Shown here: positions 3,194 to 62,390 of the stretch, piece after piece | Layout: each line of letters opens with the position of its first letter | Numbering within the stretch: the first letter of the stretch is position 1 | NCBI GenBank assembly: GCA_009602725.1 | Contig: WELB01000002.1 | Span: 1,481,840-1,545,839 of the forward strand | Reading direction: 5' to 3' | DNA length: 64,000 nucleotides | From: Spirogloea muscicola | Lineage: Eukaryota > Streptophyta > Zygnematophyceae > Spirogloeales > Spirogloeaceae | Notes under the pieces: generated by a model | Databases searched by the model: none | What the model was told of the DNA's origin: nothing | The model's input: only the letters and a program-made list of their open reading frames with translations | Position numbers and translations under genes: made by a program

Positions 3194-5473
3194 TCTCATG
3201 TACCTTTGGTCAATCAATTACCATGGAAGACTTATGCTATATCAATACTACCCTAAACGTCTTACAAGCCTAAGGAGCCTTCATACTGCTTGGTGCTCCT
3301 TCACATGTCACTTACTTAGAGCTGTTATGATGAGCACGCTCCCTTGTAGCCCGCTACTCTTTTGCAACTACCTGGCCTCCTTTGAGCCTGTCACGATAAG
3401 AACGCCTGTTGGGGCTTTTCGAATTGCCTGCCCCTATTTGAGCCTGTCGTGGTAAACCAGGATATGGGGACAATTCTGAGACAGTCATTGACAACAAAAG
3501 AACATCAACAATACTTGCTAACTCTACCCGCTCAGAATCTGAATGGGAGGCTGGGCTCTCGAGTCCGGTCAGCAAATCAAATAAGCACATCTGGCCTTGA
3601 CATCCCTGTTAGCCTGAGAAGGCCGATAGAGCACCCTGTAGACAACACAACAAGCGGCTCGTGCTCGTGCAGACGGAGGTCTGGGCAGCCAACCAAGGAG
3701 TGCCGCCATAGTGCAAATAGTGCTTGAGGCTGCAATTGTGTCTTTCAAGGCACTTGTTGCACAAAGTCCGAGGCACAGAGACTCCTACTGAGAGGTTGTT
3801 TCATACAGAATGGTGGTGCACAGCACAACCGAGAGTCTCCTAGCACAATAAGCCTTGGAAGGGACCAGAGAAGGACCATACCATGAAGGTAGGTAACCAA
3901 CACCCAGCAACCACGCACATGTCGTCCTGAACGACCATTCGCAGAGGAACTTGAGACGAATGAGATGTGCACTATCCTGGACGTAAGACCAGAAGGAAGA
4001 TTGCACTTCTTGCATCTTACTTCCAAAACCAGGCCACTAAGGAAAGGGGATATACTCAGGGACCTCGAAGAAGGAATAGTTAGAGCCTGGCACTCCGAAA
4101 AAGTCTCTCACATAGATAATGAGCGAGGGGGAGAGAGAGAGAAGGCGCGCGGTGCGCATGAAATTAAAGCGAGGCCAATTCAAGCCATTACATTGTTAAA
4201 GGGGACGAATGGTGGGAGATCACAATTGCTTGGATGGCTTTGACGAGCTTTGGCAAGATGGTGCACTCAAATCACAAGTACCTGGTACATGCTACACAAC
4301 AGCAGTGACTAACAAGATTCACCAGATTGCCACTCCAGAAGTGCAGTGCTTGTGGCACATGTAAGATGCACATGCTCTGTCGTGTTGAGGCACGTCATCC
4401 ATCCGCTTGGTGTAAAGAGGGAGTAGCAAGCATGGCAAGTCCAACCCGCTTGGGTCAGGGAGCAGGCTTATCCTGCCGCCCGTGCCTCACATGGCATCAG
4501 CGCGCAAGCCCCATCTGTTACTCGTGCTGCACAGAGAGAAGGCCTTCAGGGATTGACTGCTTGATGAGCTGTGGCGAGTACCATTGAGGCAGCAACAACT
4601 AAGGATGTTAGTGGGAGAAAGTGACAGCCTCAGGCTACACGGGCGTTTGGGGTCAGGGGTGCCAAATGGGCCAGATGGCCTGCCCCAAGAAACGATGAAA
4701 TACTTAACGAGACCAAGCATAAGGAGAGGAAACATTCTTTCAGTAGAGGGTGATGGCTTTGAGTGGCTAGCCCAGCAAATGAATGAACAAAGGGGTGTGG
4801 AGGGCCGGGGCTGAGTAGTTCTCTCGGCCCAGTCTGTCACTCTTGCAAGACTGCCCCGCGCCGCCGCTGCCGCCACATTGCCGAAGGGCGTTGATTGCTC
4901 CTACTGTGCCACGTCAAGAAGGCATGAGCGTGGAGGAAGGGCAGCAGCGCAGCTAGAAAGTGAATATTCACAGGCGAACATGGATCCTCACTACAATCCT
5001 TTACCCTTGTGCTGAGCATCCACTTCCAGAGACATCTCCGTAAAGGCTTGACACGACTCACTATCTTGAGATTGTGATATCGTGAATAAAGGCCACATCT
5101 AGTATGTAAAAATCACGACCTACTCCTACTCCAGATTACTTGTGCAGATTGAGTATATACCAGTTAGAGATTTGGCTGGTGGCATCATCGAGGTTTCAAA
5201 ACTATCACCGGGAGTCTTCTTCAATGTCTGCCCTTACACCTTCTCATGTTGCTGCAAGGAATACACATAGCTCCTTCAGCTGCTGATCATGACTTCCCTT
5301 GCAATCATGCTGCTTGATCGATTCCCTTTGACGTGCTGTTTATGTCAAGCTAAGATTATGAGCCAAACCTTTGGCCCTGAATACATAATTGACTTGCACA
5401 CGCCTGGCATCAAAGACGAAGATGTGAACAGGCTATATTGGGTCAGGAATTGTAGCTTCTGCACCTTGTCATA
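3194..5473. other. intergenic stretch between two convergent genes
   Basis: No convincing gene was found. Open frames here are short and match nothing recognised. A minus-strand Ala/Arg-rich frame starting at 4876 looks faintly like a targeting peptide, but no conserved continuation follows. The only identifiable item is one copy of the GCGCGCGG-GCGCAT tail module near 4131-4200. Confidence 0.5.
4131..4200 (-). repeat. isolated copy of LINE tail module A
   Basis: Contains GAGAGAAGGCGCGCGGTG followed by GCGCATGAAATT and GGCCAATTCAAGCC. This is the same block that follows the stop codon of truncated LINE 3' ends at 15.9-17.0 kb, 54.4 kb and 57.3 kb. Minus orientation is defined by those copies. 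No ORF remnant adjoins it, so it is a bare tail or a tail-only insertion. Confidence 0.7.
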
Positions 5474-9719: not shown

Positions 9720-9926
9720 CCATATTCCAGCAGCATTCCTTCTTTCGGGTTCACCGTCCTCTACATACTCATTCTACTGGAAGCGTCTCCACTTCTTTCG
9801 GGCTTGCCAATGCATGCCAACGCTGTAGCATTGGCACTCTGCAGCTCTCCCTATCTGGGCTGGCCTCTCACAAACCATTGCCGTACATTGAAAGAGCTGC
9901 TCTCTCAAGGAGGAGATACTATTTCC
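9720..9926. promoter_or_regulatory. upstream region of the NSUN5-like gene
   Basis: Short upstream segment between the NSUN5-like start and the first LINE tail. It holds a degenerate LINE-tail-like stretch near 9840-9895 (GGGCTGGCCTCTCACAAACC). No core promoter motif could be identified with confidence. Confidence 0.3.
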
Positions 9927-10310
9927 GCGGCCTCCGGGTCTCGGCGGAGTGCCTTCCCTGCCTCGAGCTACTCGGACCTGATGTTGCTCACTCGGCGGGT
10001 ACTGAGCTTCCCTAGTATGTTGTCGTGATTGGTAGAGTAGAGGAGTCCTTCCTCGGCATCTCATTCTTCGGCTTTGGACATTGTCCATTCTTTTTGGGCT
10101 GGCTTTGCCAGCCCCTCTTTCGGCGGCCTCCGGGTCTCGGCGGAGTGCCTCCTTCCCTGCCTCGAGCTACTCGGACCTGATGTTGCTCACTCGCGGGTAC
10201 TGAGCTTCCCTAGTATGTTGTCGTGATTGGTAGAGTAGAGGAGTCCTTCCTCGGCATCTCATTCTTCGGCTTTGGACATTGTCCATTCTTTCTCTATGGG
10301 CGAGCCTTCT
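9927..10310 (+). mobile_element. two tandem LINE 3' ends (about 180-bp direct duplication)
   Basis: Two near-identical units, about 9927-10101 and 10122-10297. Each contains a C-terminal coding remnant (SSYSDLMLLTR-like), a stop in the GGGTACTGA context, a roughly 100-nt tail and TTTGGACATTGTCCATTC. Between them is the stem-loop GGGCTGGCTTTGCCAGCCCC. The second unit ends with CTATGGGCGAGCC. The first unit joins the second directly after the stem-loop, so the second copy sits in the first copy's tail. Both are severely 5'-truncated. Confidence 0.75.
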
Positions 10311-14324: not shown

Positions 14325-14535
14325 TAGGACCGCGTCCATTCTTTCTGGACTGGCCTTTCGCAGCGCTCGCCCCCTCTACTTATTCTGATCTGCACTTGCT
14401 GACTAGAGGTCATTGAGCGCCCTCATGCAGAAGTCATGAAGTATCCTGCCTTTTGTGCCTTCCGGCCCTTGTGCATTACTTTGGGCTGGCCTCTCACAGC
14501 CATTGCCTTACATTTGAGGAGCTATTTCTTGGAAA
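14325..14535 (+). mobile_element. chained LINE tails carrying stem-loop module B
   Basis: A module (GTCCATTCTTTCTGGACTGG ... GCTCGCCCC) is followed immediately by a short coding end (TYSDLHLLTRGH-stop, about 14371-14417), a second tail and a second module (GGGCTGGCCTCTCACAGCC at about 14493). The short coding end starts exactly where the preceding module stops. Confidence 0.6.
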
Positions 14536-17560: not shown

Positions 17561-17677
17561 CTTGAATTGGCCTCCCTTTCAATTCATGCGCCCCGCGCGC
17601 CTTCTCTCTTGGCCACTTTCTTGGCAAAAGAGAGAAGGCGCGCGGGGCGCATGAATTGAAAGGGAGGCCAATTCAAG
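17561..17677. repeat. perfect 50-bp inverted repeat of module A
   Basis: Left arm 17561-17610 and right arm 17628-17677 are exact reverse complements over 50 bp, with a 17-nt loop. Each arm is a complete module A core (CTTGAATTGGCCTCCCTTTC ... CGCGCGCCTTCTCTCTT). Perfect identity in an otherwise diverged family indicates recent formation or ongoing homogenisation. Confidence 0.9.
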
Positions 17678-31400: not shown

Positions 31401-34015
31401 TCTGTATTTGGACATTTGTATCGTAGCTTCCAATGATCAGACTGAGACTAAGATCCTGCAAAACTTCTACTAAGAAATTGCAGACAAGTCGCTCTTGTAA
31501 TACCTCGGAATGTGCGGTAGTATGGATCCAGAAGCAGGTTGCTCAGAGACACAAGCTGAGCCGTCCTATCCCACCCATCGCTGCAGTGCACTAGAACTGA
31601 CGTCTCGTCCACAGCAATTCGTGCCGCTATCCATGCAGCTCCAGCCAGCAGGGCATGGACATGCTGCAGCCAACCAGAATCAGCAAGTGCAGCAGCTGCT
31701 ACAGCTGTGCTGCTGGTGTTCCCCCCGGTCCAACCGCCCCCTGTTCCCTGGCTGCGGAGGAGCGAAGAAGAGCCATCCGATGAGCAAGCGCCATGTACAT
31801 CGAGATACTCACGAAGACGCTGAAAGCTCTCTCGCATAATGTGGATGTTCTCTATGCCAAGGAATACAACCTGCATGGAAGCAGGTACGCTGAAGTTAGC
31901 CACTGTAGGGAGTAAGACTTGGACGACAAGTGCCAACATATCTTAAGCAAACAACACCTAAGGGGACTTGAGGCTGCTTTACTGGCGAACCTTAACTCAC
32001 AAGTACATCATACTAAAAGCCGGGACAAGCGCTACCTCTGAGTGCCGGTAATTAGCAGCAGGCTCAGATCCACCGCCCATGGCTCCGTTAGCCAATGCAT
32101 TCTTTCGCGGCCGAGCATCTGCAATGTATAGCTTCCTGCCGCTGTCGCTGAGAGCAGCCACGAGCTTCTCATCTGCTTCATTTCTGCTGCTCAACATGAT
32201 TCCAACCAAAGGCTGTGCGGACCTGCAGAGGGTGGCACCATTGACAGGGTGGCGCCAGCTGACAGCAGGTAACCTGCCCCTCGCACGGAATGCCGAGGCG
32301 GCCAGCAAATCCTCATCTGTGATTCCTGGTGGGACTAGTAAGAGGGAGGGATAGGTTGGGCATATGCTGTAGCTTGCATTTCCCTTGCTAATTCGCCAAC
32401 CTTCACTCCGGCCTGATTTGCTTGGGAGGAGGCTCGCTACACTCTGCCTTTGCATGGTAACTCCCTCAACTCTGCTCTGCAAAAGATCCCGTATGAGGTG
32501 TGGCTCTGACTCACTAAGGTTTCTCGTCATACTGCATGTGCTTGCCACAGTGCAGCTATCAAGTATCCGGAGGTACTCTGCCCTCAAGTTTGCTACAACA
32601 TCCTGGCCCTGAATATGCACAGTATCAAGCTGCTCAGGCTTATCCAGGGACCTGGCATCAGCCTTGCCAAGAAAGTCTGTGTCCTGAAAAGGCTGCACCT
32701 CATCTCCAAGTTGATCCCTGACTACAACAAAAGACTGTGACGCCCTTTCAGCCGCTCCAACAGCAAATGCATGCAAGTCAAGCAGGCGAAGGGGTCGCAT
32801 GAGTTGCAGCAGAGCGTCGTGTATGAGTCTTCGCTGCCTTGTTCTTGGCCGGAAGGCAAATAAGAGTGTTCGCACATCCTTTCCTGCACGTTGACAACAG
32901 ATGATGTGTCCAAAGACATGTTACACGAAATTATTGGTCACGAAGTAACAGAACAGACACTCTGCATCAACAGATTGACCTCAACAGCAAATGTGATTGC
33001 TGCGAAGCTTTCCTTGGCAAGGGAACAAAACAAACTTGTTGAGAAGTAAGTACTACTGACCTATCACTTGCAGGAGCCGGAGGCCTGGCACTCGCTCCAT
33101 GGGACGTGACCAGCCAGCAGATGAGGCCCTGCCTGATTGCTATACCAGCATCATGCAACAAACCAACACTTTCAGCCCATGTGCAGCAAGGCAGGCAAGG
33201 CTGCAGTGTTGTACATGCGTACGTGCTCACTTAGACGCCTCACCGCACTATCCACATTCGGCTGCTAAATGCATAACGGATTGAGGTGCTATCACGATGT
33301 CGTGAGCAAGGATGAAGCTTCGAGCAAGGACTCGGAATCTTGTCTGGTCAAGCCTTTCCCGTGGTCCGAGCCAAAAAGGAAGCAGTGCTCACTTATATAG
33401 GGTGAAAAACGTACCAGCTTGCACATTCTGTCGATGGCGCATATCGGAATAGTGCCGAGGCTGAGTGGCTGAGCCTTGCCCTCACAGAGAAAGAGCAGGC
33501 GGAAGTTGGTCACCAGGAGAGAGCCAGTAATGTCACAGTTGACGAGCACCACATGCTGCAGCAAGTGCAGGCGCGTGCATCAGGCGCGTGTTGCACATTC
33601 ATCGCGGACTGAAGCTCCGCTTGCTGCTGAAGGAATGAGGAGCACTAGAGTGTGCAGGATAGTAGCCAAGCTGTACCAAGCCACTGCCCCTGACTGTAGT
33701 CTCTATGCCGAACCCTTACAGACCCTGCCAACGCAATCCGTCCAGCTCTGGTCCAATGTTGACGGGGAATAGTGGCGCACAAGTCTGCTGAGCTCGGCTG
33801 CCAGCACACCGCATCTTGGACTCAAGTTGCCACTTGTAACGGCAACACTGGACCATTGTCAGCGGGCCGTGCAGGGGCTTCACCTGAACCTCGGCGACGA
33901 TCTGCTCAGCGGGTAGCAGAGCTTGCTCAGCGGCCGCACTGAACGGGCGCGCCTCCACGTACGTCCACTTGCCGCCAAGGCCGCTGCCGTCAAGCGTCAC
34001 GCCCTCCATCGACAT
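28476..34015 (-). CDS. myotubularin-family phosphoinositide 3-phosphatase
   Basis: Removes the 3-phosphate from PI3P and PI(3,5)P2 on endosomal membranes. Leftward: start region MEGVTLDGSGLGG (34009); GRAM module NCDITGSLLVTNFRLLFL (~33530); a long exon 32.88-32.04 kb with FVVVRDQLGDE, AVSWRHPVNGATLCRSAQPL and KLYIADARPRKNALANGAMG; VVFLGIENIHIMRESFQRL (~31850); the catalytic CX5R loop VHCSDGWDRTAQL (~31590), intact; LVEKDWLAFGHPFAERMG (~31320); a Ser/Gly-rich insert of about 60 residues; FLQWLDCVSQLLRIFPEAFEY (~31050; shown as FLQWLDCV and FPEAFEY); and LYDPNVHRDVLLPP (~30620). A coiled-coil exon follows (30.31-30.16 kb; MEERCRELEASASTLRERLE) with short coiled-coil pieces near 29.75 and 28.60 kb. 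The last two pieces and the TAG at 28476 are less certain. It shares its upstream region with the plus-strand gene at 34502. Confidence 0.87.
29160..29365. repeat. tandem direct repeat of about 110 bp in a myotubularin intron
   Basis: GGCTCCCAGTTTGCCTGCCC at about 29160 recurs as GGCTCCCAATTCGCCTTCCC at about 29270. Each is followed by ACGATGATGCA(A/C)CAGGTT and AAGCCTGGGATxCA. This is a local duplication with some divergence and is not part of the LINE families. Confidence 0.7.
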
Positions 34016-45422: not shown

Positions 45423-48400
45423 TCAAACATGACGGGCAGTGAGCCCTGGCAAAGCTGTGCCGCCAGCCAAGGCATCGGCAATAGTCAATGCAGCTACAGC
45501 CTTGCGCATGGCATCGTCAGCTACTGTATAAAAAGCACAAGCTCTGGCTCTCAAGTCCACGGCCCTCCGCCTCGTATTCCTCGCCACCATGGCTAGCATT
45601 CCAGGCCCGCCGGCGAGGTCTGTCCCCCTGTAGACCTTGGCCTTCTTCTGCTGCCTTGCTGGGGCAGACACGCCAGCCAGCACCGGAACCAGCTCTGCCT
45701 TCCCTTCGGCTGTCAACGCAGGAGACTGCAGTACAGGCTTGGCATCTGCAGGCCAAGCTCCGAAGCTCGTGGTCTTTGATGGAGGAGCATCTCCATCTCC
45801 AACAGCATGGCAGTTGTCAACTGGAGAAGCTGCAACTTGCAAGGAGGGAGGGTCGCCACTAGCGTACTGAACCTCAAGCAACGAGGCAGATGCCACACCC
45901 TCCGCTTTTAAGTCCTCACAAGACTGGCGGCACCTGCCTTCCACATCCATGGAAGCCATGGCACAGTTTAGCTCCTCCGGCAGTGCAGAAATGTTGAGGG
46001 ACTCTGCACGAGCCACAAGAGCCAACGTGTCAGCTACTGCAGAAACAACTAGTTGGTACTTGTCCTGGATACAAGAAAGACAATGAATTGCGCCATACCA
46101 CTGCACAAACGTGCACTTTATCATCACTTCTGCACTACTAAACAGAAGCATGGCCAGCTAGGATACCATGCATACTGACCTTGAAGGCTTTCCACCTTCC
46201 TCTTCCGCAGTAGTTGCCTCTTCCCTGGACTGCTCCCAACAGGGCTGCAGATAGAATGCTTGAAACCACGTGCTCGAGGGGAAGGCAAGGCGTACGCTCC
46301 AGAGGACCTTGCCTCTGCACTTTTGCCAGCTTCTGAAGCCTGGCGATCAGGCTGCCTCTTGTGAGAGCGCTGCCTGTGCAGCCTGCTAGAGTCTAGCCCC
46401 CGAGGTCGCAAGCAGAATGCAAAGAGTGGCGGCCGCTGCGGCTTCCCTGGTGACTGAGGAACTTCCTTCGAAGGAAGCCTGGTCAAGTCTGCTGCTTTAA
46501 AACCCTTGGGTGTGGTGGAGGCATTGCCAGTACGGGGCAGTTCCGCTTGCGATCCTTCCGTGTCTACCTTGGCCTGCCACTCCTGCAACTTCCACTGGTA
46601 CTGCACCCATGGCGGAGGCTGCACACACAACAATGACCGCGAAGTTGCTGCATAAGACAGTGAGGTAAGCTGCCAAATACCAAGTGCAAGGACATCGTAC
46701 CATGCAAATCATGTCTTACTATGGATGGCTGGAATCCTGGCTGAGGCGAATGTACATGCTTGCTTTGTCCATTACGAACAAATCTCCAGCAATGGTCACA
46801 AGCAAACCATCCTTCCGGAATTAGTGCATAGCAATACCAGCTAACCAGCACTACTGTCCAACTTGACCAGCAGAAGACTGGGAACAAAGGCACATGCTTG
46901 GAAACCTGAAAGTAGCGGACAAGCGGAAGATCTTTCGCCTGCCGTCTCTCCAGCCAACGGCCATGCAGCAGCGCCACCACCTTAGGAGTGGCAACCCCCT
47001 CACAGAGATCCACAGCAGCTTCCAAGCCAACAGGCTGTTGCAACGAGTAAGAGGCCTTCTCTAACTGATCAAAGACAAGCTCGTACTCATCCTCAGCAAT
47101 CTTGTTCTGCAGCCTCAAGCCTCGTGGACCCATAGCCCTCTTCTGATTGACAGCAGCCAGCCATTCCTCGTCATCACTGTCCATATCATACACAATCCGA
47201 GTGCTAGACAGTGCCGACTCTGACTCGGATTGGCCACCTCGTATGTATCTTCCAGCAGGCCGGGAGAATCTTGGTCCATGGTGCAGCTGCGCATAATCCA
47301 ACACCTCCTTCACACCTGGTATCGGAATCTGTCGCAGCGCTGCAGCTTGCAGATTACGCCGGTAGCAATCATCGTGATAGTCCTTGAATTGGAGCCAGGC
47401 CTTGCGGTCCTCAAACTCCAGACTCCACGCTTTGTCACTGCGCCAGACTATTCTGTTACTGCATCGATTTGTACTTGAGGTGCTTCCCAGCTGCTCACTC
47501 TTGTACGTGAACATGACTCCCCCTCGAACAACCACAGCCAAGTACCACGCCCTCTTGGGATCGCAGCGGAGCTCAACTGCTGCATGCCTCTCTCGCCAGC
47601 CCCGATCAGATTGGATGACGAGAACATTTGCCCTGCAGACATCTGATTCTGGGCTTGACGACCTCTTCTCACCAGTCTGCGGTGTGTCTGAGGGCTCGGC
47701 CTGTCCTCCAATCACAGGGCTAGGCTGTTTCAAGGCTCCCCGAAGTCGTGGCCTCAACGAAGTATTTGCTGCTGCCGGTCTTGGAGACGTACTTGTGTTG
47801 TGCATGGAACTCAGGGCTTGAGGTGTAGCCACCTTTCCCAGCCAGAGGTCAGCACCCTGTGGGAGCATGTCCACTGCCGATGGGGAGTGGGATGGAAGGT
47901 CCAGAGCAGGAGCCCTTGCCTGCGCATCTGGCAACTGCTTGGTCTCTGCTGCAAGTGCCGTGACAACCTTGGGACTAGCCTGCTGCGGAGAGGGTAGCTG
48001 CTCCGCAACTTGCCAGACGGCTTTGTTGGCAGGGCAGCGCTTCAACTTCAAAAGGCCAACCCTGGGAGCCTGCTCACCTGGCGCCACCTCATTTGAGCAC
48101 AGTGTAGTCACTCCGGATGCTGGCGCTACAGGGACCTTGGGCACAGCACCAGCGGTGCTCTTCTCTTGCTTCGCCCTGTCCTTCTGGTGCCTCCCTTTCC
48201 AAGCCTTGACAGGTGGTGCATGCGGCGTGGCTCCATTCTGCTTGCTGTCCAGATGTTGCTCTGCATTCGCCTCACCACACTCCGCCTCGGTTGTGCACTC
48301 CTTCCCTGCTTTCACAGCTGTACTTACAGAGCCCTCGGCAGCCTCTGCTGCTGCTGCAGCCCTCGCGGCCCTCCGTGTGAAGGACATCTTTGGAGCAGGT

Positions 48401-49547
48401 GTAGGAGGAGGCATCTGCTTGTCACTCCTAGGACTGACTGCTGTTGCCTCGACCTTCCTGGTCACAACACCCTGCGGCTGCCTGTCAAGCCCCTGAAGTT
48501 TGGCATTCCTTCTCTCCACTGAATCCATGGCTTCAACATCAACCTCCTGAAGCTCATCAAAAGCTGCAGAACTGACTGAAAGTGCCAAGTCAAGCCGCCC
48601 TGCCTTTGCTCTGAGTGGCAGATTCAGAGTAATCTCAGCTGTCTTATGCTTCGCATGATCTGGCCATTGTCTGACTGAATCAGTCCTTGCCGCAGACAGC
48701 ACTTCGTCCACTTGAGGCAGAGCCGCAGGGAGCACTTGGTCCACGTGAGGCGCAACAACATCCACCTCCCTCACCTCCCCGTTCACAGCTTGTCGGAGCG
48801 GATCTGCGTGTGCCTGGACAATCAGTGCAAGAGGATGATAACAATCAGGAGATATCTCAGGAAAGTGAAGAGGAGCTAATGTACACGGTTGGAGTTAAAA
48901 GAGTACAAACGATACGCTAGCAACAATGGTAAGATCGATGGAAGATCATGACAGTTTGGCATCAGCAATGTCCGTCGAGGTCAGTTGCTATTACTGACCT
49001 GAGCTTCCTCCAAGCCAAGGGCGCGGGGATACCCTCCTCTAGTTGCCGGCTCGCTCTGCACCTTCCGCTGCGACGCTGCTGCCATTTCGTCCCGGCTTCC
49101 AGACACCTCCGGTTGCCGTTCTTTGATCGCAGTTTGGCCTGGTCGGAGTATAGCCGGCTCTCCGCCACGAACCTGCAGCTTGAATGTCTCCTTGTCCAGC
49201 TTGAGCCACTCCTCATCCCCATCGTCATAGACAACCCTGTGCTCCTGCCTCCTGCTGTTGTACGCCCTCACAACTCCAAAGAAATACTTGGCCTCCATGG
49301 GCCAGAAGACCTTGATCCTGCGGCCCACAATCTTAGGGCCATCGCTAGGCGTGAGGCAAACTTGCTGCAGGGGCCCGGGCCGCTTGGATTGGGGCTTCTG
49401 GCACTCTGGGGCTGGTCGCTTGGCCCGCAGGACGCGGCGCTCCGTGTGGAGTTGGGCCTTGGCGTCGACGATGACCATCTCGGGCAGGACGGGCTGGCCG
49501 GAGAGCATGCTGCTCTCAGCATCGTGCCAAGGGGGCGCCACGGTCAT
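45423..49547 (-). CDS. Tudor-domain plus enhancer-of-polycomb-like (EPL1) chromatin protein
   Basis: Plant-type EPL protein, expected to be the Epl1 scaffold of a NuA4/TIP60-like histone acetyltransferase. Exon 1 (49547-48999, 183 codons, phase 0) carries a Tudor-like fold: GRRIKVFWPMEAKYFFGVV, HRVVYDDGDEEWLKLDKE. Exon 2 (from 48813) holds a long disordered segment, then a conserved block VELRCDPKRAWYLAVVVRGG and IPIPGVKEVLDYAQLHHGPR (48.0-47.28 kb), then the EPL1 domain: VYDMDSDDEEWLAAVN, IAEDEYELVFDQLEKASY, KVVALLHGRWLERRQAKDLP, LVRYFQ. Exon 3 continues PPPWVQYQWKLQEWQAKV and RPPLFAFCLRPRGLD. The last exon (~46.06-45.42 kb) has the plant-EPL C-terminal helix RARACAFYTVADDAMRKAV and ends in TGA. 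The start is uncertain: an upstream ATG near 49697 (Kozak GCCGCCATGG, MAELPPPPRAS) could belong to an extra 5' exon. Confidence 0.88.
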
Positions 49548-51834: not shown

Positions 51835-52105
51835 CTACACTACAAAACACTGCAAAAGACATAGACGATGCAGAGGGCAGCTCAGTACCCACGAGTGAGC
51901 AACATCAGGTCTGAGTAGCTCGCTGCAGGGAAAGGAAGCTCGCTGAAGGGAGACGGACAATCGCATATGAAATACCTGAGCCCACGAGCCAGCGCCGTTA
52001 AAGAGAAGGGCTCGCCCATTGAGGATAGGGGCTGGAAAAAGCCAGCCCAGAAAAGAATGAACGGACGAGAAGGGGCCAGGGAAAGTACGAAGAACAACAA
52101 GCACT
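51835..52105 (-). mobile_element. further LINE tails, minus strand
   Basis: Minus-strand end with SYSDLMLLTRGY-stop (~51925-51882) preceded on that strand by module B (CCAGCCCCTATCCTCAATGG GCGAGCCCTTCTC, ~52040-52005) and GGCCCCTTCTCGTCCGTTC. The coding end again begins a short distance after the module. Confidence 0.55.
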
Positions 52106-52133
52106 AAGAAGAAACGAAGCAGCTACGAAGCAC

Positions 52134-52560
52134 TCAGTAACCCCTGCTAAGCAGCCTCAGGTCAGAGAGACTGGGTTCCTGGAAGCGGGTCCACTGGCCA
52201 GAGCCAGAGGCAGCAGCGAGGGCTCTGCCTGCACGCAGGTGCAGCGCGCGGGCCATAGACCTCTGCAGCGAGACGGCCAAGCGCATGCGGTACACCTGCG
52301 CTAGCGACCCTGCTGCATGGGAGTCCACCGGCTCCCCATGGAAGCGGCGGACAATGGCGTGACGTGAGAGCTGGTTGAGCAGCTCGAGCCACCGAGCGCC
52401 CAGCGCCCCGTGCGTATCGATGGCGAGCGGGAAGAACTAGTCTTCCCGCGTTAAAGACAGCCAGCTCACCACGCCTGCGGGACACCGCGCGCCGCGCAAG
52501 CCTGGCCAGCAGGTCGAGCCGGGACCCGAGAGCCCCGTGCAAAGCCCAGCCCAACAAGAA
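52134..52560 (-). mobile_element. 5'-truncated LINE family 2, minus strand
   Basis: Remnant with a GALGSRLDLLARLARRAVSR-like region (partly frame-disturbed), then HAAGSLAQVYRMRLAVSLQR, ALHLRAGRALAAASG and SLSDLRLLSRGY-stop. It is a close relative of the plus copy at 52973-53283 and the minus copy at 62689-62990, and lies head-to-head with the plus-strand chain that follows. Confidence 0.65.
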
Positions 52561-52599
52561 TAAACAAGGTCCAAAGAGCCCTCGCTGCTGCCTCTGGCC

Positions 52600-53430
52600 C
52601 TGGCCAGGCGGGCTTTGCTAGCCCCCCTTCTCTCCATTTGGCCGTTTGGCCATTTGGCCTTTGTTCGTTTCAAATACACGAACTTGCCTTCTCTCAGGGC
52701 GAGCAATTTCTTCTGCCAGGGGACCCGCCTCCTCCGCTTTTTTGGGCTGGCTTTTTCCAGCCCCTATCCTCAACGGGCGAGCCCTTCTTCCAGGAGCCAA
52801 GTTTCTCTGACTTGGGGCTGCTTAGGGGTTACTGAGAGACTCGTAGCTGCTTAGTTTCTTTTGTGCTTGTTTTTCTGAGTGCTTTCTCTGGCCCCTTCTC
52901 GCACTTTGGTCATTCGGATTTTGGGCTGGCCTTTTCCAGCCCCTTTCCATGCATGGGCGAGCCCTCCTTCTCCAACGACGAGTTCGTCCCCCTGGCTGTG
53001 GACGTGCATGGGGCTCTCGGATCCCACTGGCTGGACCTGTTGGCCAGGCTTGCACGGCGCGCTGTGTCCCGCAGGCGCGGTGAGCCGGCTGACTTCAACG
53101 CCGCTGGCTCGTGGGCTCAGGTGTATCGTATGCGCTTGTCCGTCTCCCTCCAGCGGTCCATGGCCCACGCCTTGCATCTGCGTGCTGGCCGTGCTCTCGC
53201 TGCGGCCTCCGGCTTTCGTCAGGGGGATACTTTACGGGCAGCTACTCTGTCGGATGTGAGGCTCCTCACTCGTAACTACTAAGCGGTCCATCCTCCCCCG
53301 TTCTGCCATAGCCTCTTCAGGCCCCGCAGTCGCTGCTTAGCTCGTAGTTTGGCCCCTTCGAACCTTGTCAATTCTTTTCGGGCTGGCTTCTCACAGCCCT
53401 TGCCCCCATTGGGAGAGCCACTTCTTCTCC
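52600..53430 (+). mobile_element. chain of LINE 3' ends, each inserted in the previous tail
   Basis: Three plus-strand units. Unit 1 ends with GGGCTGGCTTTTTCCAGCCC and GGGCGAGCCCTTCTT (~52793). Unit 2 starts there with a remnant ending in RGY-stop (~52835), carries about 110 nt of tail, a second stem-loop and GGGCGAGCCCTCCTTCT (~52972). Unit 3 starts there with DEFVPLAVDVHGALGSHWLD, LLARLARRAVSRRRG, RMRLSVSLQRSMAHALHLR and SDVRLLTRNY-stop (53283), then its own tail and module (53351-53430). Confidence 0.75.
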
Positions 53431-54125
53431 AAAGAGACAAAAGGTTGCCGGAAAAACTCATGGGTCCCAAGCTTCCATCTGAGGTCGTCTCGTGTCTAGC
53501 TGTGTGGTTCTTTTCTCTTTTCTTTTTATTTTCCTTCTATATTTCGGCACCTTTTTGGCTTCTCACGGCTGCCCCTTTTGATGAGCGCCCCCCGCTGCAG
53601 CCGTCGCCCCTAATGAAAGGAAGTGCTTCTGCTCTGCGATAATGGATGAATGAATAAAGGCTGCTACTAAGGCTATTCACGGCTGCGATGAAGCGGTACG
53701 GCTCGATGGTGGGCTTGCTGACCCACCATCCGTTCCACCGGAAGCACCGCGCGGCCCATACAGCCAACCTGGGGGGACTGGACTAACGACGACCGCGGAG
53801 ATGAGCCCCCTTCGCCCTTTCCTTTTCCCCCAAGTCACAACAGCTTCTTCCAGTGTAAGGCAGGGGCTGTATGTAGAAGTGGCTCTCCCAATGGGGCAAG
53901 GGTTGTGAGGATTTAGCCCGAAAAGAATTGCATAAAGCCTTAGTGTTTCTCTTTTCCAACCTCCCTCCCCTGGCCTTTCACCGCCTTGTACTTCGCCTCG
54001 TATCAATTCTGCCTATTGCTGTTGTGACGATTTTCCAGCTGCAAGCTGCTCTTAAATGCGACTGCTAATTAGGAATGGAGCACCCAATCGTAAAGGCCAC
54101 TCGTGTAGCTGTGAGCTTTAGCGCT
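53431..54125. other. no gene; diffuse repeat remnants
   Basis: Nothing recognised except a weak minus-oriented module near 53870-53935 (GGCTCTCCCAATGGGGCAAG, CCCGAAAAGAATTGC). Short frames only. Confidence 0.4.
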
Positions 54126-54480
54126 TTCAGGCCCCTTCGTGCTTGTTTTTCTTAGCGCTTCTCCTGGCCCCCTTCTCGTATTTTGTTCCTTCTCTTTTGA
54201 GCTGGCCTTTCCAGCCCCTATCCTCAATGGGCGAACCAGCCCATTCCTTCCATTCCTTTCTCGATACACCAGCGTGCTGGGCGTGCTTAGGCCAGGCTAA
54301 TGGCTTCCGTGGTGGTGGTCTTGCTCCTCAGCTTAGGTTGTCAGATATGTATGTGATCACTCGAGGATATAAGTGCCCCCCTTAGCTAACTCATTACCCC
54401 GTTACTAGGACATTTGTAAGGCTAGAGTTGGCCTCTATTTCAATTGCATGCGCACCGCGCGCCTCCTCTCTTTGGGCTGG
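54126..54480 (+). mobile_element. LINE tails with module B then a family 3 end with module A
   Basis: Module B at 54150-54235 (GAGCTGGCCTTTCCAGCCCC, AATGGGCGAACC) is followed by a coding remnant ending QANGFRGGG and SDMYVITRGY (~54300-54370), then a tail and module A (TTTCAATTGCATGCGCACCG CGCGCCTCCTCTC, ~54440-54475). It parallels the unit at 57095-57312. Confidence 0.65.
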
Positions 54481-57094: not shown

Positions 57095-57312
57095 AGGCAC
57101 TCGCGATACACCAGCGTGCTGGTCGTGCATTAGCCCAGGCTAATGGCTTCCGTGGTGGTGGTTTGGCGCCTCAGTATAGCATGTCAGATATGCATGTGCT
57201 CACTCGGGGATATTAGTGTGCCCCTTAGCCAGCTCATTACCCAGTTAACAGGACACTTGTAAAGCTACAATTGGCCTCCCTTTCAATTTCATGCGCACCG
57301 CGCGCCTTCTCT
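57095..57312 (+). mobile_element. LINE family 3 3' end with module A
   Basis: Coding remnant GNGFRGGGLAPQ ... SDMHVLTRGY-stop (~57140-57214), tail, then module A (AATTGGCCTCCCTTTCAATT ... CGCACCGCGCGCCTTCTC, 57268-57312). It is very similar to 54290-54475. The copia element starts about 30 bp further on. Confidence 0.7.
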
Positions 57313-57342: not shown

Positions 57343-60300
57343 TGTTGAAAATAGTATTAAGGTGAAATCAGCGGGTCGTCGGGCTCACTCTCCACATCTG
57401 AGGCCACACAGGTGCTCCCGTGCGCCCTAGCCATGGCTGCCAGCCACCTTGGGTGAGGGCGGAGCCTGTGCTGTCTGTCTAAATGACTGGCTGAGATCTG
57501 AATCTCTCTGCCACCATGAGCGCATCTGCATCTGTGCCGCCGCGACGAGGACGGTCTGCTGAGCCTGTGGACAAGGGCAAACGTCCGATGGAGGACTCCG
57601 ACTGGAGGAAGCCAGAATCTGAACAACAGACAGGAACAGGTACAGGAGCAGGTACAGGAGCGTACAGCCCAGGACAACTTTCGGGTGATGGGCCCACCGG
57701 GCGGCTCGCTTCCTGTGCTCAGTCCCAAACTATCTCGTGAGACGAACAGGCTAGTCTGGAAGTTCAAGATGACAAAGTTGCTCCAGTTTCAGAACGTTTG
57801 GACTGCTGTAGAGCCCACAGCAGATCGAGGGCTATGTCGGCTCTTCTCTCAGGAGAACGTTATTGCCTCAGCGATTCTTGTGGCGAATTTGTCTGATGAA
57901 GAGTTGATTGGAGTTGTTAACAAGTCTCTGGCAAGCGGGATCTGGGGTCATCTGAAGAAAGAATAAGTTTGAAATTAGAGGAACTGACAGGGCTTACTAT
58001 CTCAGCATGCGCTTGCGCGAATGCAGAAAGGAGGAGGATGAGCCAATCCAAGAATTTGTGAACAGTGTAGAATCATTGGCTCTTCAGCTGCAGGACATTG
58101 GAGAGGAGGTTCCAGCCCGTCGTCAGGTTCTCTCTACTCTGATGGTGCTTCCACAGGAGTATGATGCTCTTCGAGACTCTTTCCAAATGGTCAACAAGGA
58201 TGACCTGACTGTTGAGCATGTGCTGGCTCGCCTTTTTCATAAGGAGCGAGCATTGGAGGAGCAACATCGAAATCTGACAGGGTCTCTGACAGAATATCCG
58301 ACAGGACCTCTGACAGGATCTCTGAAAACAGGATCTTTGACAGCTACTCTAATAGGGATCTCTGACAGGTACACAGGCAGCGCTGATGGCCAGACACCAG
58401 TCTGAACAAGATCTCCGCCAACACTTGAATCAATAACACTTGAATCAATGATTGATTCAAGTGTTGGCGGAGATCTTGTTCAGACTGGCCAGACGATGCC
58501 TGCGTACCTGTCAGAGATCCCTATCAGAGTACCTGTGGAAGATCCCGTTTTCAGAGATCCTGTCAGAGGTCCTGTCGGATATCAAGGATTCACCAGCAGA
58601 CTGTTGCCCGCATTTTTCGGAGAGAGAGTGGTGGTGGTAGTCGTCTGAATGAAGATCAATATTCAGGATGGAACAGGAATCCTATATACCCTAGAACCTG
58701 TTTCTACTGTCGTGAATTTGGTCATGGAATCAACGACTGCCCAAAGAAGAAAGCTCTGGGATTCGGTGGCAATAGTAGAAGTGGCAGAAACAGCTATGCT
58801 GAAGGACAGGCAAATCTGTCAAGACAATCTGATAGCCCAATTTGTGATAGCTGGCTGATCGATAGTGGAGCTTACCATCATCTAACTTACAGGCGGGATT
58901 GGCTTCATAATTTTTAATCTGTTCCGGACTTAGAAGATTTGTCTGGGTGACGACAGTGTTCAGCCTGCTGTGGGAAAAGGAGAAATGCAGCTGCAAGTGC
59001 CTCCCTTCAATGGCACTGAGACACAACATCTGAAGAATGCATATCATGCCCCTGGTTTAGTGTACAATCTTCTGTCTGTATCTCAGCTCTTAGACCAGGA
59101 CTATCAAGTTGTTTTGGACCGAAATATCTGTACCATCAAGGAATCTGGTGTTCCATTCTGACAGGACACAGGTCAGGATACCTGTTTACTCTGAATGGGC
59201 AGGTGCAAGTACAGGCTGTGGGAACACGATATTAGGTGCAAGAACAGATTCAGGTTCAGGGCAGAGTTAATGTGTCCGAGTTTAAGAGAAGCACATTTGA
59301 GCAATGGCATGCTCGACTGGGACATCCCAATGTCCAGAGGATTGAGAAGCTGAATGGGAGGGTGCATGGAGTAGATACTCTTGCACAAGATATTGAATCT
59401 GAAGTCTGTGTTCAGGGCAAACTCCATCTTCAACAACCGCTTGCTGGTGAGCACTATAGAGCTTCTACACTTCTGGAGCTGGTGCATTCTGATGTCTGTG
59501 GCCCTAAGCAAATACCATCTCTAGAGGGTAGCAGATAGATTCTGTCCTGCATTGATGATGCCAGCAGATGGAGTAAGGTGTATTTCCTGAGAAACAAGAG
59601 TGAAGTGCTGGAGCATTTATGCGTTCCAAAGCTGCAGTGGAGTTGCAGACAGGGGAAAGACTCTAAGGCCCTTAGATCTGATGATGGTGGAGAATGAATG
59701 AAGAGTTTGACAGGTTCTGTCTACAGCAGGGTATACTCAGACAATTGACAGCAGCCTAACGTCCTCAACAGAGTGGAGTGGCGGAAATGTGGAACAGATC
59801 TGTGATGGAGTTTGCAAGGTGCTTACTGTTCCATTCTTTTACACCATCAGAATTGTGGGTTGAAGCAGTCGCAACGGCTGTTTGTCTGAAGAATACACTA
59901 CCTACTAGTGCAGTAAAAGACATGATGCCACAGGAGTTCTGGACTGGAAAGAGACCTACAGTTGCCCACCTTAGGGTATTTGGTTGTTCTGCGTGGATGC
60001 ACATTCCTACTGAAATGAGACACAAGCTGCAAGCAAAGGTTCGTCAGTGTGTCATGGTAGGATATTGTGAACACGTGAAAGCGTGGAAATTGTTTGATCT
60101 TGAGGGCAGGGGGATGGTGTTCAGCAGAGATGTAGTGTTTGATGAAACGAGAAGTCCAGACTATTCTGCTTTTCCGTCAGGGTCATCTGAGACAGTGGGA
60201 GAAGTGCAGTGGTGGCCTGTATCTCAAGAGCCTGACATTGTGGCTGATGTGGAGGCAGGGTCTGAATCTGGCACTGGAGTGGAAGCAAGGACAGTAGGTG

Positions 60301-62390
60301 AAGATCTGGAGGAGACTGCTGCTACACTGGGAGGATCTAGGACAGGTGTTCGTGCTCTTGCTGCTGTTGTTTTACATGAGCCTCTCACTATGCAAGAAGC
60401 CATGAGTAGCGTTGCAGCAATCAAGTGGAAAGCAGCAGCAGAGGCAGAACTAGACTCCATCAAGGACAACAATACTTGGGATCTGGTAGACTTACCAGCT
60501 GGCAGATAGGCGATACCCAGCAAATGGGTATATAAGATGAAACTGAAGGGCGATGGGTCTGTAGATCGATACAAAGCATGCCTTGCGGCTAAAGGAGTGC
60601 CCAGAAGGAAGGGATTGATTACAATGAGACAGTTGCTCCAGTGGTTAAGAACAGTGCTGTGAGAAGTTTGCTGGCCATGGCAGCCATCCATGATGCAGAA
60701 GTAGAGCAGATGGATGTCACCACAGCGTTCTTGAATGACAATCTCGAGGAAGAGATTTATATGCAACAGCCTGCAGCTTTTGAAGTAAAAGGCAAGGAGA
60801 GTAAAGTGTGCAAGGTGAAGAAAGCACTGTATGGGCTTAAACAGGCGCCCAGGCCCTGGTATGCACAGATTGATAATACTTTCTTAGTGAACCAAGGTTT
60901 CAAGAAATTTGAGGCTGATCATATTGTGTATGTAAGGGAGAAATCTGCTAAAGTGGTTCTGGCGTTATATGTTTGATGTTCAGATTCTACTGGGAAATTC
61001 AGCTACGAAGTGAAGAGAGTAAAGCAAGAGCTGAGTAGTAGATTCAAGATGAAGGATCTTGGGCCCTTGGAGTATTTTATGGGAATCCAGGTAAAGAGAG
61101 ATAGAAGCAGGAAGATCTTGACATTGAGTTTGTCGAAGTACATAAGTGAAGTTTTGGACAGGTTTGGTGTGCAAGACTGCGACCCTATCTTTACTCCACA
61201 GGACACAAAACAGACTTTGAGCAAGGATCAGGGACCCAAGAGAAATCAAGACAGACAACAGATGGCACAGGTACCTTAAAGGCAGGCAGTAGAATGTCTA
61301 ACGTACATAGCTGTGGCAGCACATCCAGATATAGCAGCAGCAGAGGGAGTGGTTGCTCGGTTTGTGCAAATTCCTGGTTGTGAACATTGGCAAGCTGTGA
61401 AGAGGATCATGCGATATTTGCAGGGAACCAAGAATCTGTCTGACGTTTAAACAAACAGGAGATGAATATGATGAACTGGTAGGACTTTGTGATGCCGACT
61501 GGGCAGGAAGTCTGGATGACAGAAGGTCGGTGACAGGTTATACCTTCGAGCTGGGAGCAGGAGCAGTCAGTTGGAGTAGTAGGCAACAGCAGACTGTGGC
61601 GACTTCAACTCTTGAAGCGGAGTACATGGCAACGACTGCAGCAGCAAAAGAAGCAACCTGGCTGAGGAGACTACTACAAGAATGTGAATTTCTTTCTTCA
61701 TCAAGTGCGACCACTTTGTTCAGTGATAGTCAAGGTAGTATTGCTTTGATTAGGAATTCTGTCTATCATGCTCGTACTAAGCATATAGAGATACATCATC
61801 AATTTATCAGAAAAAAGGTAGACCAAGGAGTCATCAAGATGCAACACTGTAGTACAGCAGAAATGACTGCAGATATTCCGACCAAGTGCTTGCCTAAGGC
61901 CAAGTATGATTGATGTAGACGTTTGCTAGGTCTGGCTGATTCACATATTTAGTGGGAGTGTTGAATATAGTATTATGGTGAATCAGCGGGTCGGGGTGGG
62001 TGACCATCCCGCCCATCTCATTCGGCCGTGAAAGTCTCTCCTGGATAAGGAAGGCCTCGGGCACCCATCGGGCTCACTGTCCACATCTGAGGCCACGCGG
62101 TGATCCCGTGCGCCCTAGCCATGGCTGCCACCCACCTTGGGTGAGGGTGGAGCCTGTGCTGTCTGTCTAATTGACTGTCTGAGATCTGAATCTGTCTGCC
62201 GCCATGGGGTCATCTGCATCTGTGCCGCCGCGAAGTGGACGGTCTGCTGGGCCCGTGGACAAGGGCAGACATCCGATGGAGGACTCCGACTGGAGGAAGG
62301 CAGAATCTGATAATGCTAACTACAAGAGACAGGAACAGGTACAAGAGCAGGTACAGGAGCGTATAGCCCAGGACAACTTTCACGGCGGAG
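57343..62390 (+). mobile_element. decayed Ty1/copia LTR retrotransposon with a partial tandem copy
   Basis: A fossil copy in plus orientation. A left LTR begins at 57343 (TGTTGAAAATAGTATTAAGG) and a right LTR at 61959 (TGTTGAATATAGTATTATGG). Copia order: gag (from ~57516) with a CCHC knuckle (~58700), protease (~58855), integrase including a GAG-pre-integrase region (59240-60130), reverse transcriptase (~60400-61280) and RNase H (~61480-61910). It is broken, with roughly ten interruptions across the polyprotein, and the two LTRs differ clearly. It is therefore not a recent insertion. After the right LTR, about 180 bp of gag-start sequence recurs (to ~62390), so a second, mostly lost copy lay in tandem. 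The element sits just beyond a LINE tail. Confidence 0.9.

Follow-up and report, generated by a model that had tools for sequence, protein, structure and literature searches.

The window analysed here, 64,000 nucleotides of contig WELB01000002.1 (1,481,840-1,545,839) from the alga Spirogloea muscicola, contains nested copies of LINEs (long interspersed nuclear elements), and three of their 3' ends lie close together at 52.6-53.4 kb. The copies are quite probably 5'-truncated members of several families in one group of non-LTR (long terminal repeat) retrotransposons, and their nesting is quite probably produced by a loose preference for pyrimidines together with clustering in LINE-rich regions, not by targeting of the tails. 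The enzyme would nick weakly specified pyrimidine-rich sites and prime copying through a few bases that match the CUUCUU terminus of its RNA (target-primed reverse transcription). Copies would accumulate, with insertions occurring or surviving mainly where these LINEs already abound, and tails would be hit about in line with their share of the local CT-rich DNA. A tail followed by coding sequence could arise by at least four routes: what follows may be the rest of a host copy that was interrupted, or a new copy that landed in an old tail or directly behind it; the joint may come from tandem duplication; or a two-copy block may have been moved via one read-through RNA.

The genome searched comprises 153.1 Mb in 471 contigs, and the families are named F1, F2a, F2b, F3 and F4, with F2c also among the 3' pieces. 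It gave 68 matches to chlorophyll-binding (LHC) proteins, as well as RbcS matches in two pieces on each of four contigs, which fits the green lineage, probably a green alga. The long copy with a reverse transcriptase that the first-pass annotation proposed to look for does exist: the full-length relative L063 has a single frame of 1335-1336 amino acids with an RVT_1 match (Pfam, E 8.3e-16). The frame of this relative encodes, in order, zinc-finger-like motifs, the reverse transcriptase, a CCHC knuckle and an R2-type restriction-like endonuclease. The C-terminal fold matches the R2 endonuclease in a fold search with the predicted structure, with both the CCHC and the PD-(D/E)XK-type features present, which bears out the earlier suggestion of a restriction-like endonuclease; a profile of the endonuclease alignment found nothing among PDB sequences at E 1. 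No APE (apurinic/apyrimidinic endonuclease) family was found in the L063 frame by Pfam at E 0.1. With a reverse transcriptase in a long frame and this predicted endonuclease fold, the group is placed among the broad R2-like restriction-like-endonuclease (RLE) LINEs. The 3' ends are precise and follow a conserved stem-loop module (loop CTTTTCC), the termini are of the CTTCTT type, and copies are truncated at the 5' end. The 3' untranslated region (UTR) of F1 carries the site GCCTCTTCAGG. Tails fold clearly better than shuffles in two of five cases only (z -3.2, -3.6), and no claim is made for an outer helix that would enclose the 3' stem-loop (GTCCAT/ATGGGC vs TGTCAA/TTGGGA), since a free-offset search inflates pairing. 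The Rfam scan of the window gave zero matches at the gathering score. Among viral contigs, two stretches fit a pattern for relatives and none was confirmed.

The three 3' ends at 52.6-53.4 kb are all on one strand, with cores ending at 52,782, 52,962 and 53,418, and each carries the stem-loop GGGCTGG..CAGCC plus GGGMGAGC. The features of this region are as follows.

52575..52607, + strand: host F2-family copy, left piece (coding end), aligning to F2a 225-257
52609..52711 (ends approximate), + strand: insert A, a decayed tail-like fragment (GGGCTTTGCTAGCCCC .. GGGCGAGCAATTTCT), read by eye, with host copy on both sides
52712..52732, + strand: host F2-family copy, middle piece, ending CCTCC, aligning to F2a 249-270
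52733..52786, + strand: insert B, a 3' end only of ~50 nt (stem-loop and GGGCGAGCCCTT), with 4 extra bases before it
52787..52972, + strand: host F2-family copy, right piece, with coding end, stop, 3' UTR, stem-loop and GGGCGAGCCCTCCTTCT, aligning to F2a 266-444 at 81%
52967..52975, + strand: target-site duplication CTTCTCCAA, left copy, starting within the host tail
52976..53423, + strand: 5'-truncated F1-family LINE with C-terminal coding end, 3' UTR, stem-loop and GGGAGAGCCACTT, 98-99% identical to genomic copies
53424..53432, + strand: target-site duplication CTTCTCCAA, right copy

The first-pass annotation had these ends joined at one and the same place, each coding remnant starting directly after the preceding tail; the same-strand ends are real, but of the two joints only the second is an insertion into a tail. 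At the 52,786 joint, GGGCGAGCCCTTCTT is followed directly by CCAGGAGCC. The bases before the short tail (52,712-52,732, TCTGCCAGGGGACCCGCCTCC) and those after it, from 52,787 on, align to adjoining, overlapping parts of one family, with a 5-bp overlap (CCTCC/CTTCC), and the host copy therefore runs across the short insert. By this alignment, the supposed coding remnant is the older copy's own remainder, broken by a ~50-nt tail fragment, and the order of events is the opposite of that proposed. The second decayed insert, at ~52,609-52,711, breaks the same host copy. At the 52,970 joint, a 453-bp copy starts at 52,976 with the 9-bp duplication on either side, the left one beginning in the older tail, and this is a true nested insertion. 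This copy is matched by many in the genome that have a common 3' point and varied 5' points. The joint string GGGCGAGCCTTCTT was rejected as evidence for a shared joint: with up to 2 mismatches it occurs twice in the window against 0.55 expected, a count that 10 of 100 shuffled sequences also reach and that is no greater than chance allows.

Insertion sites were collected from 75 tails found in the sequence examined, giving 51 sites with two flanks after filtering and 49 once two host remainders (L027-2041 and L028+2059) were removed. Three loci (L001, L011 and L014) were dropped as duplicates of other sequence, and one of the 75 tails for having no family alignment; copies below 90% identity or 60 nt, flanks below 60 bases, and L026 and L063 were left off the site list. 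The filtered-out copies include one in the window at rc (reverse complement) 20695, with the duplication CTATACGATTTTA and 87% identity. The start of the 20 F2b 5' pieces lay inside the piece in 12, past it in 2 and was not found in 6; 6 joined the site list. Runs of N in L026, L032 and the random stretches L110, L112 and L116 hide some flanks; those of L026 and L032 adjoin long homopolymer stretches and are probably masked or unassembled sequence.

The insertions lie in tails at 8 of the 49 sites (6 same strand, 2 opposite), in other LINE DNA at 15 (9 and 6) and elsewhere at 26. Recognised LINE DNA is thus the target in 23 of 49 insertions, spread over many positions and both strands. This is a lower bound, since sequence was counted as LINE DNA when it resembled one of six library pieces. 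The concentration of junctions at the stem-loop module that the first-pass annotation proposed to test for did not appear, and the diverse target sequences show no specificity for rRNA genes. A further sample was picked on protein similarity; after 10 of its 40 F2b/F2c 3' pieces were dropped as having N or no intact tail, 12 of the remaining 30 show LINE DNA starting within 25 bp in the 3' flank. The LINE share of the window is 0.104, and binomial tests against it give 9e-11 (23/49) and 2e-5 (12/30), with sites treated as independent. The share is 0.004 in 30 RT-containing (reverse transcriptase) loci and 0.028 in random stretches (17 readable; 3 of 20 were all N and were dropped). LINE DNA makes up 0.47-0.53 of the adjoining 200 bp of F1 copies (29 loci on the upstream side and 27 on the downstream side) and 0.29-0.39 farther out to 1500 bp, apart from the farthest upstream bin (0.63, only 4 loci); the 30 F1 loci are what remained of the 40 top-scoring candidates out of 6460. 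These flanks bear out the nesting of young copies in older ones.

The target motif was built from the 25 cleanest duplications of the 51 sites, with five sites removed by hand. These duplications are 5-16 bp as measured, the longest counting letters of the element tail, and 15 of 25 begin with CT or TCT. The resulting motif is weak, with C or G before the nick and YYT after it.

Blocks of several copies could also spread one joint by being duplicated as DNA, segmentally or in tandem. The first-pass annotation named block duplication as another possible source of the shared joints, and it is an unlikely explanation of them overall. It does account for one of the three places (10,100, 14,370 and 54,240) at which that annotation saw the same joint type recur.

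9922..10291, + strand: F4-family 3' end with a 198-bp tandem duplication, the 10,100 joint (Tandem Repeats Finder, 97% match)
14340..14535, + strand: short copy of another LINE subfamily, beginning mid-way in an older tail (CCCTCTACTT), read by eye

At 10,100 the second tandem unit is without a stem-loop. At 14,370 the tail is of another type (CCCTCTACTT) and lacks GGGCGAGCC; the short CTT overlap seen by eye fits a real insertion, and this other tail type was probably hit here. At 54,240 a GGGCGAACC tail is followed by ~20 nt and then by a different repeat, with no clear duplication. The F2b loci L063 and L086 have at least 410 bp upstream in common and different 3' flanks; this shared sequence may be due to 5' transduction or to segmental duplication, from which it is indistinguishable.

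Duplication of blocks fits less well with a second set of shared joints. Seven of the 20 F2b copies have 5' sides that begin within ~30 bp of one point. Upstream of three others of the 20, in C66, C135 and C453, stand a 3' end with its tail, both from a different F2b copy, and a spacer of ~170 bp, with 281 bp identical, and the full joint of tail, spacer and element is found at these three loci only, among 40 scored of 603 candidates.

C66:680084 on (L144, L090): probable read-through block
C453 (L099): probable read-through block
C135 (L101): probable read-through block

Although the joint is common, the blocks have three different 5' break points in the upstream copy and different left flanks, which argues against duplication as its source. 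The C66 block starts 425 bp from the end of the upstream copy and has a 7-bp duplication, CTTTCCA, at both of its outer ends; its left flank is F4-like, and the right continues F4 only over a short stretch (by eye). The C453 block has only CTTT at its outer ends. The simplest reading is that the three blocks were apparently moved by retrotransposition of a read-through RNA.

It is quite improbable that the tail is a specific target, with the endonuclease recognising the stem-loop or CTTCTT end and each copy rebuilding the site for the next. The tail ends (GCC|CTTCTT) and the loop of the stem-loop (GGGCTGG|CTTTTC) do look like the loose target motif, and insertions occur at such points at 53418 in the window and in L008+2036, L024 and L002-2064. 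However, the 8 tail hits compare with 5.9 +/- 2.2 at random positions within 400 bp (P 0.23), and with 7.0, 8.5 and 9.4 when the starts are matched for CT, CTT and YCTY (P 0.40-0.77). Stricter sets give 5 of 44 against 4.5-7.5 expected and 4 of 27 against 2.7-5.2. Same-strand tails are hit 6 times against 2.9 under a uniform expectation (P 0.06), but the excess is gone with CT matching (4.7, P 0.33) or CTT matching (7.8); in the strictest 27 sites there are 4 against 1.6 (P 0.06), with 2.7 after CT matching (P 0.28). The 26 sites outside recognised LINE DNA and the 15 in LINE bodies also count against a dedicated target. The tail as such a target, proposed by the first-pass annotation, is not supported, hits being not clearly above the local or CT-matched expectation; tails are hit often on account of their pyrimidine content, and not demonstrably because they are tails.

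Template jumping by the reverse transcriptase, with two RNAs copied in one event to give a tail-to-copy concatemer without target sequence between, is very improbable: R2 enzymes can jump between templates, and in L032 (5605/5720) a tail runs straight into another 3' end, no clear duplication being seen there, but target sequence separates the two copies in L008 and at 52,967-52,975 of the window, and the ~170-bp spacer separates those of the C66 block.

Several points weigh against the combination of loose pyrimidine preference and regional clustering. The motif comes from 25 of the 51 sites and is barely over chance, its total of 4.26 bits comparing with at most 4.06 in 2000 draws; a CT start is also what microhomology priming would tend to produce. 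For the F1 loci, the choice of best-scored candidates may have brought in a bias to clusters. At least one site, L020-1943, a stem-loop by eye, was scored as "other" by the automatic annotation. Same-strand LINE targets make up 0.76-0.79 within 50 bp of the junction against 0.35-0.60 beyond 200 bp (bins of more than 20 loci), and this excess leaves room for some self-preference. The structure model behind the fold match is modest, with a mean pLDDT (predicted local distance difference test) of 53.5 and mostly ~60-80 in the endonuclease part.

The Zepp and ZeppL elements of Chlorella, Coccomyxa and Chlamydomonas are described as nested, mostly 3'-end copies inserted into existing copies, and as members of the L1 clade (PMC8226300, PMC3446292); Zepp is described as ending in poly(A) (PMC3747384). 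The present families resemble them in the nested build-up of 3' ends by insertion into existing copies, but have the R2-type endonuclease fold and CTTCTT-type ends instead of an L1 protein and poly(A). The Coccomyxa account gives one Zepp cluster per chromosome (PMC8226300, PMC3446292); the 40 best-scored F1 copies lie on 32 contigs. The likeness to Zepp that the first-pass annotation drew therefore holds for the nesting and not for the enzyme or the tail: the group is Zepp-like in nested 3'-end accumulation, yet not a Zepp.

The R2 group is similar in its single frame, zinc-finger-like motifs, reverse transcriptase, CCHC knuckle and endonuclease fold; R2 is described as specific to rDNA (PMC12203849), unlike the diverse sites and weak CT motif seen here. 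RLE LINEs are reported as mostly target-specific, with many non-specific and some microsatellite-specific families in HERO (PMC4640811). HERO and other low-specificity RLE clades are alike in their loose targets, and the present group is placed no finer than RLE LINE. Dualen/RandI of green algae is reported to have a restriction-like plus an APE endonuclease (PMC4640811), and a related short interspersed nuclear element to end in (CTTT)n (PMC3747384); it shares with the present group a restriction-like endonuclease in a green-algal LINE, and the L063 frame gave no APE match by Pfam at E 0.1. Stringent-type LINEs (UnaL2 type) are described as having a conserved 3' stem-loop followed by short repeats (PMC3747384), a pattern that the present 3' ends resemble in sequence. 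MoTeR of the blast fungus is a telomeric RLE LINE in head-to-tail arrays according to PMC7367193, and its units are separated by telomere repeats, unlike the present joints.

HeT-A and TAHRE of Drosophila, in which the 3' UTR is reported to work as a promoter (PMC5537684), also form same-direction arrays with the 3' end of one copy upstream of the next; those elements are telomeric, and in the present group an RNA that started in or upstream of a preceding copy was apparently retrotransposed along with its neighbour. By analogy, older 3' ends might act as promoters, a full-length copy behind an old tail being transcribed from it and the chimeric RNA retrotransposing, though this is doubtful. 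If true, nesting would feed back on activity, and an R2-like LINE would offer an independent, non-telomeric parallel to the tandem promoter of HeT-A.

Other features of the window include further LINE pieces, host genes and repeats.

52010..52450, - strand: F2a copy within an older F1-like copy (flanks 51941-52003 and 52448-52541), with the duplication TCTTTAA
50494..51366, - strand: F3-family C-terminal frame with a CCHC knuckle (by eye) and endonuclease region, aligned with the L063 and L032 frames
31448-32875, - strand: piece of a myotubularin-like host gene
46564-48786, - strand: piece of an enhancer-of-polycomb-like host gene
59778-60509: Copia/retrovirus-type polyprotein fragment (SH3-like domain, E 4e-28)
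58294-58582: 289-bp inverted repeat, 85%, with 12- and 27-bp tandem repeats

Another module, ~45-68 bp long (AGAGAGAAGGCGCGCGGGGCGCATGAATTGAAAGGGAGGCC), recurs on both strands of the window, at 4131-4197, 12550, 13542, 15915, 16226, 16434, 17561-17677 (an inverted pair, 91.5%), 54415-54471 and 57269-57312. One possibility is that this module forms the 3' terminus of a further family.

The mechanism proposed for the nesting is an ordinary one. A restriction-like endonuclease alone does not imply targeting of tails or of sites, and Zepp-like nesting can arise in an unrelated type of LINE through loose pyrimidine preference and regional clustering. The side observation of two-copy blocks apparently moved by RNA is the interesting one, as such blocks would give a concrete handle on whether nested clusters supply the promoters of their own members.
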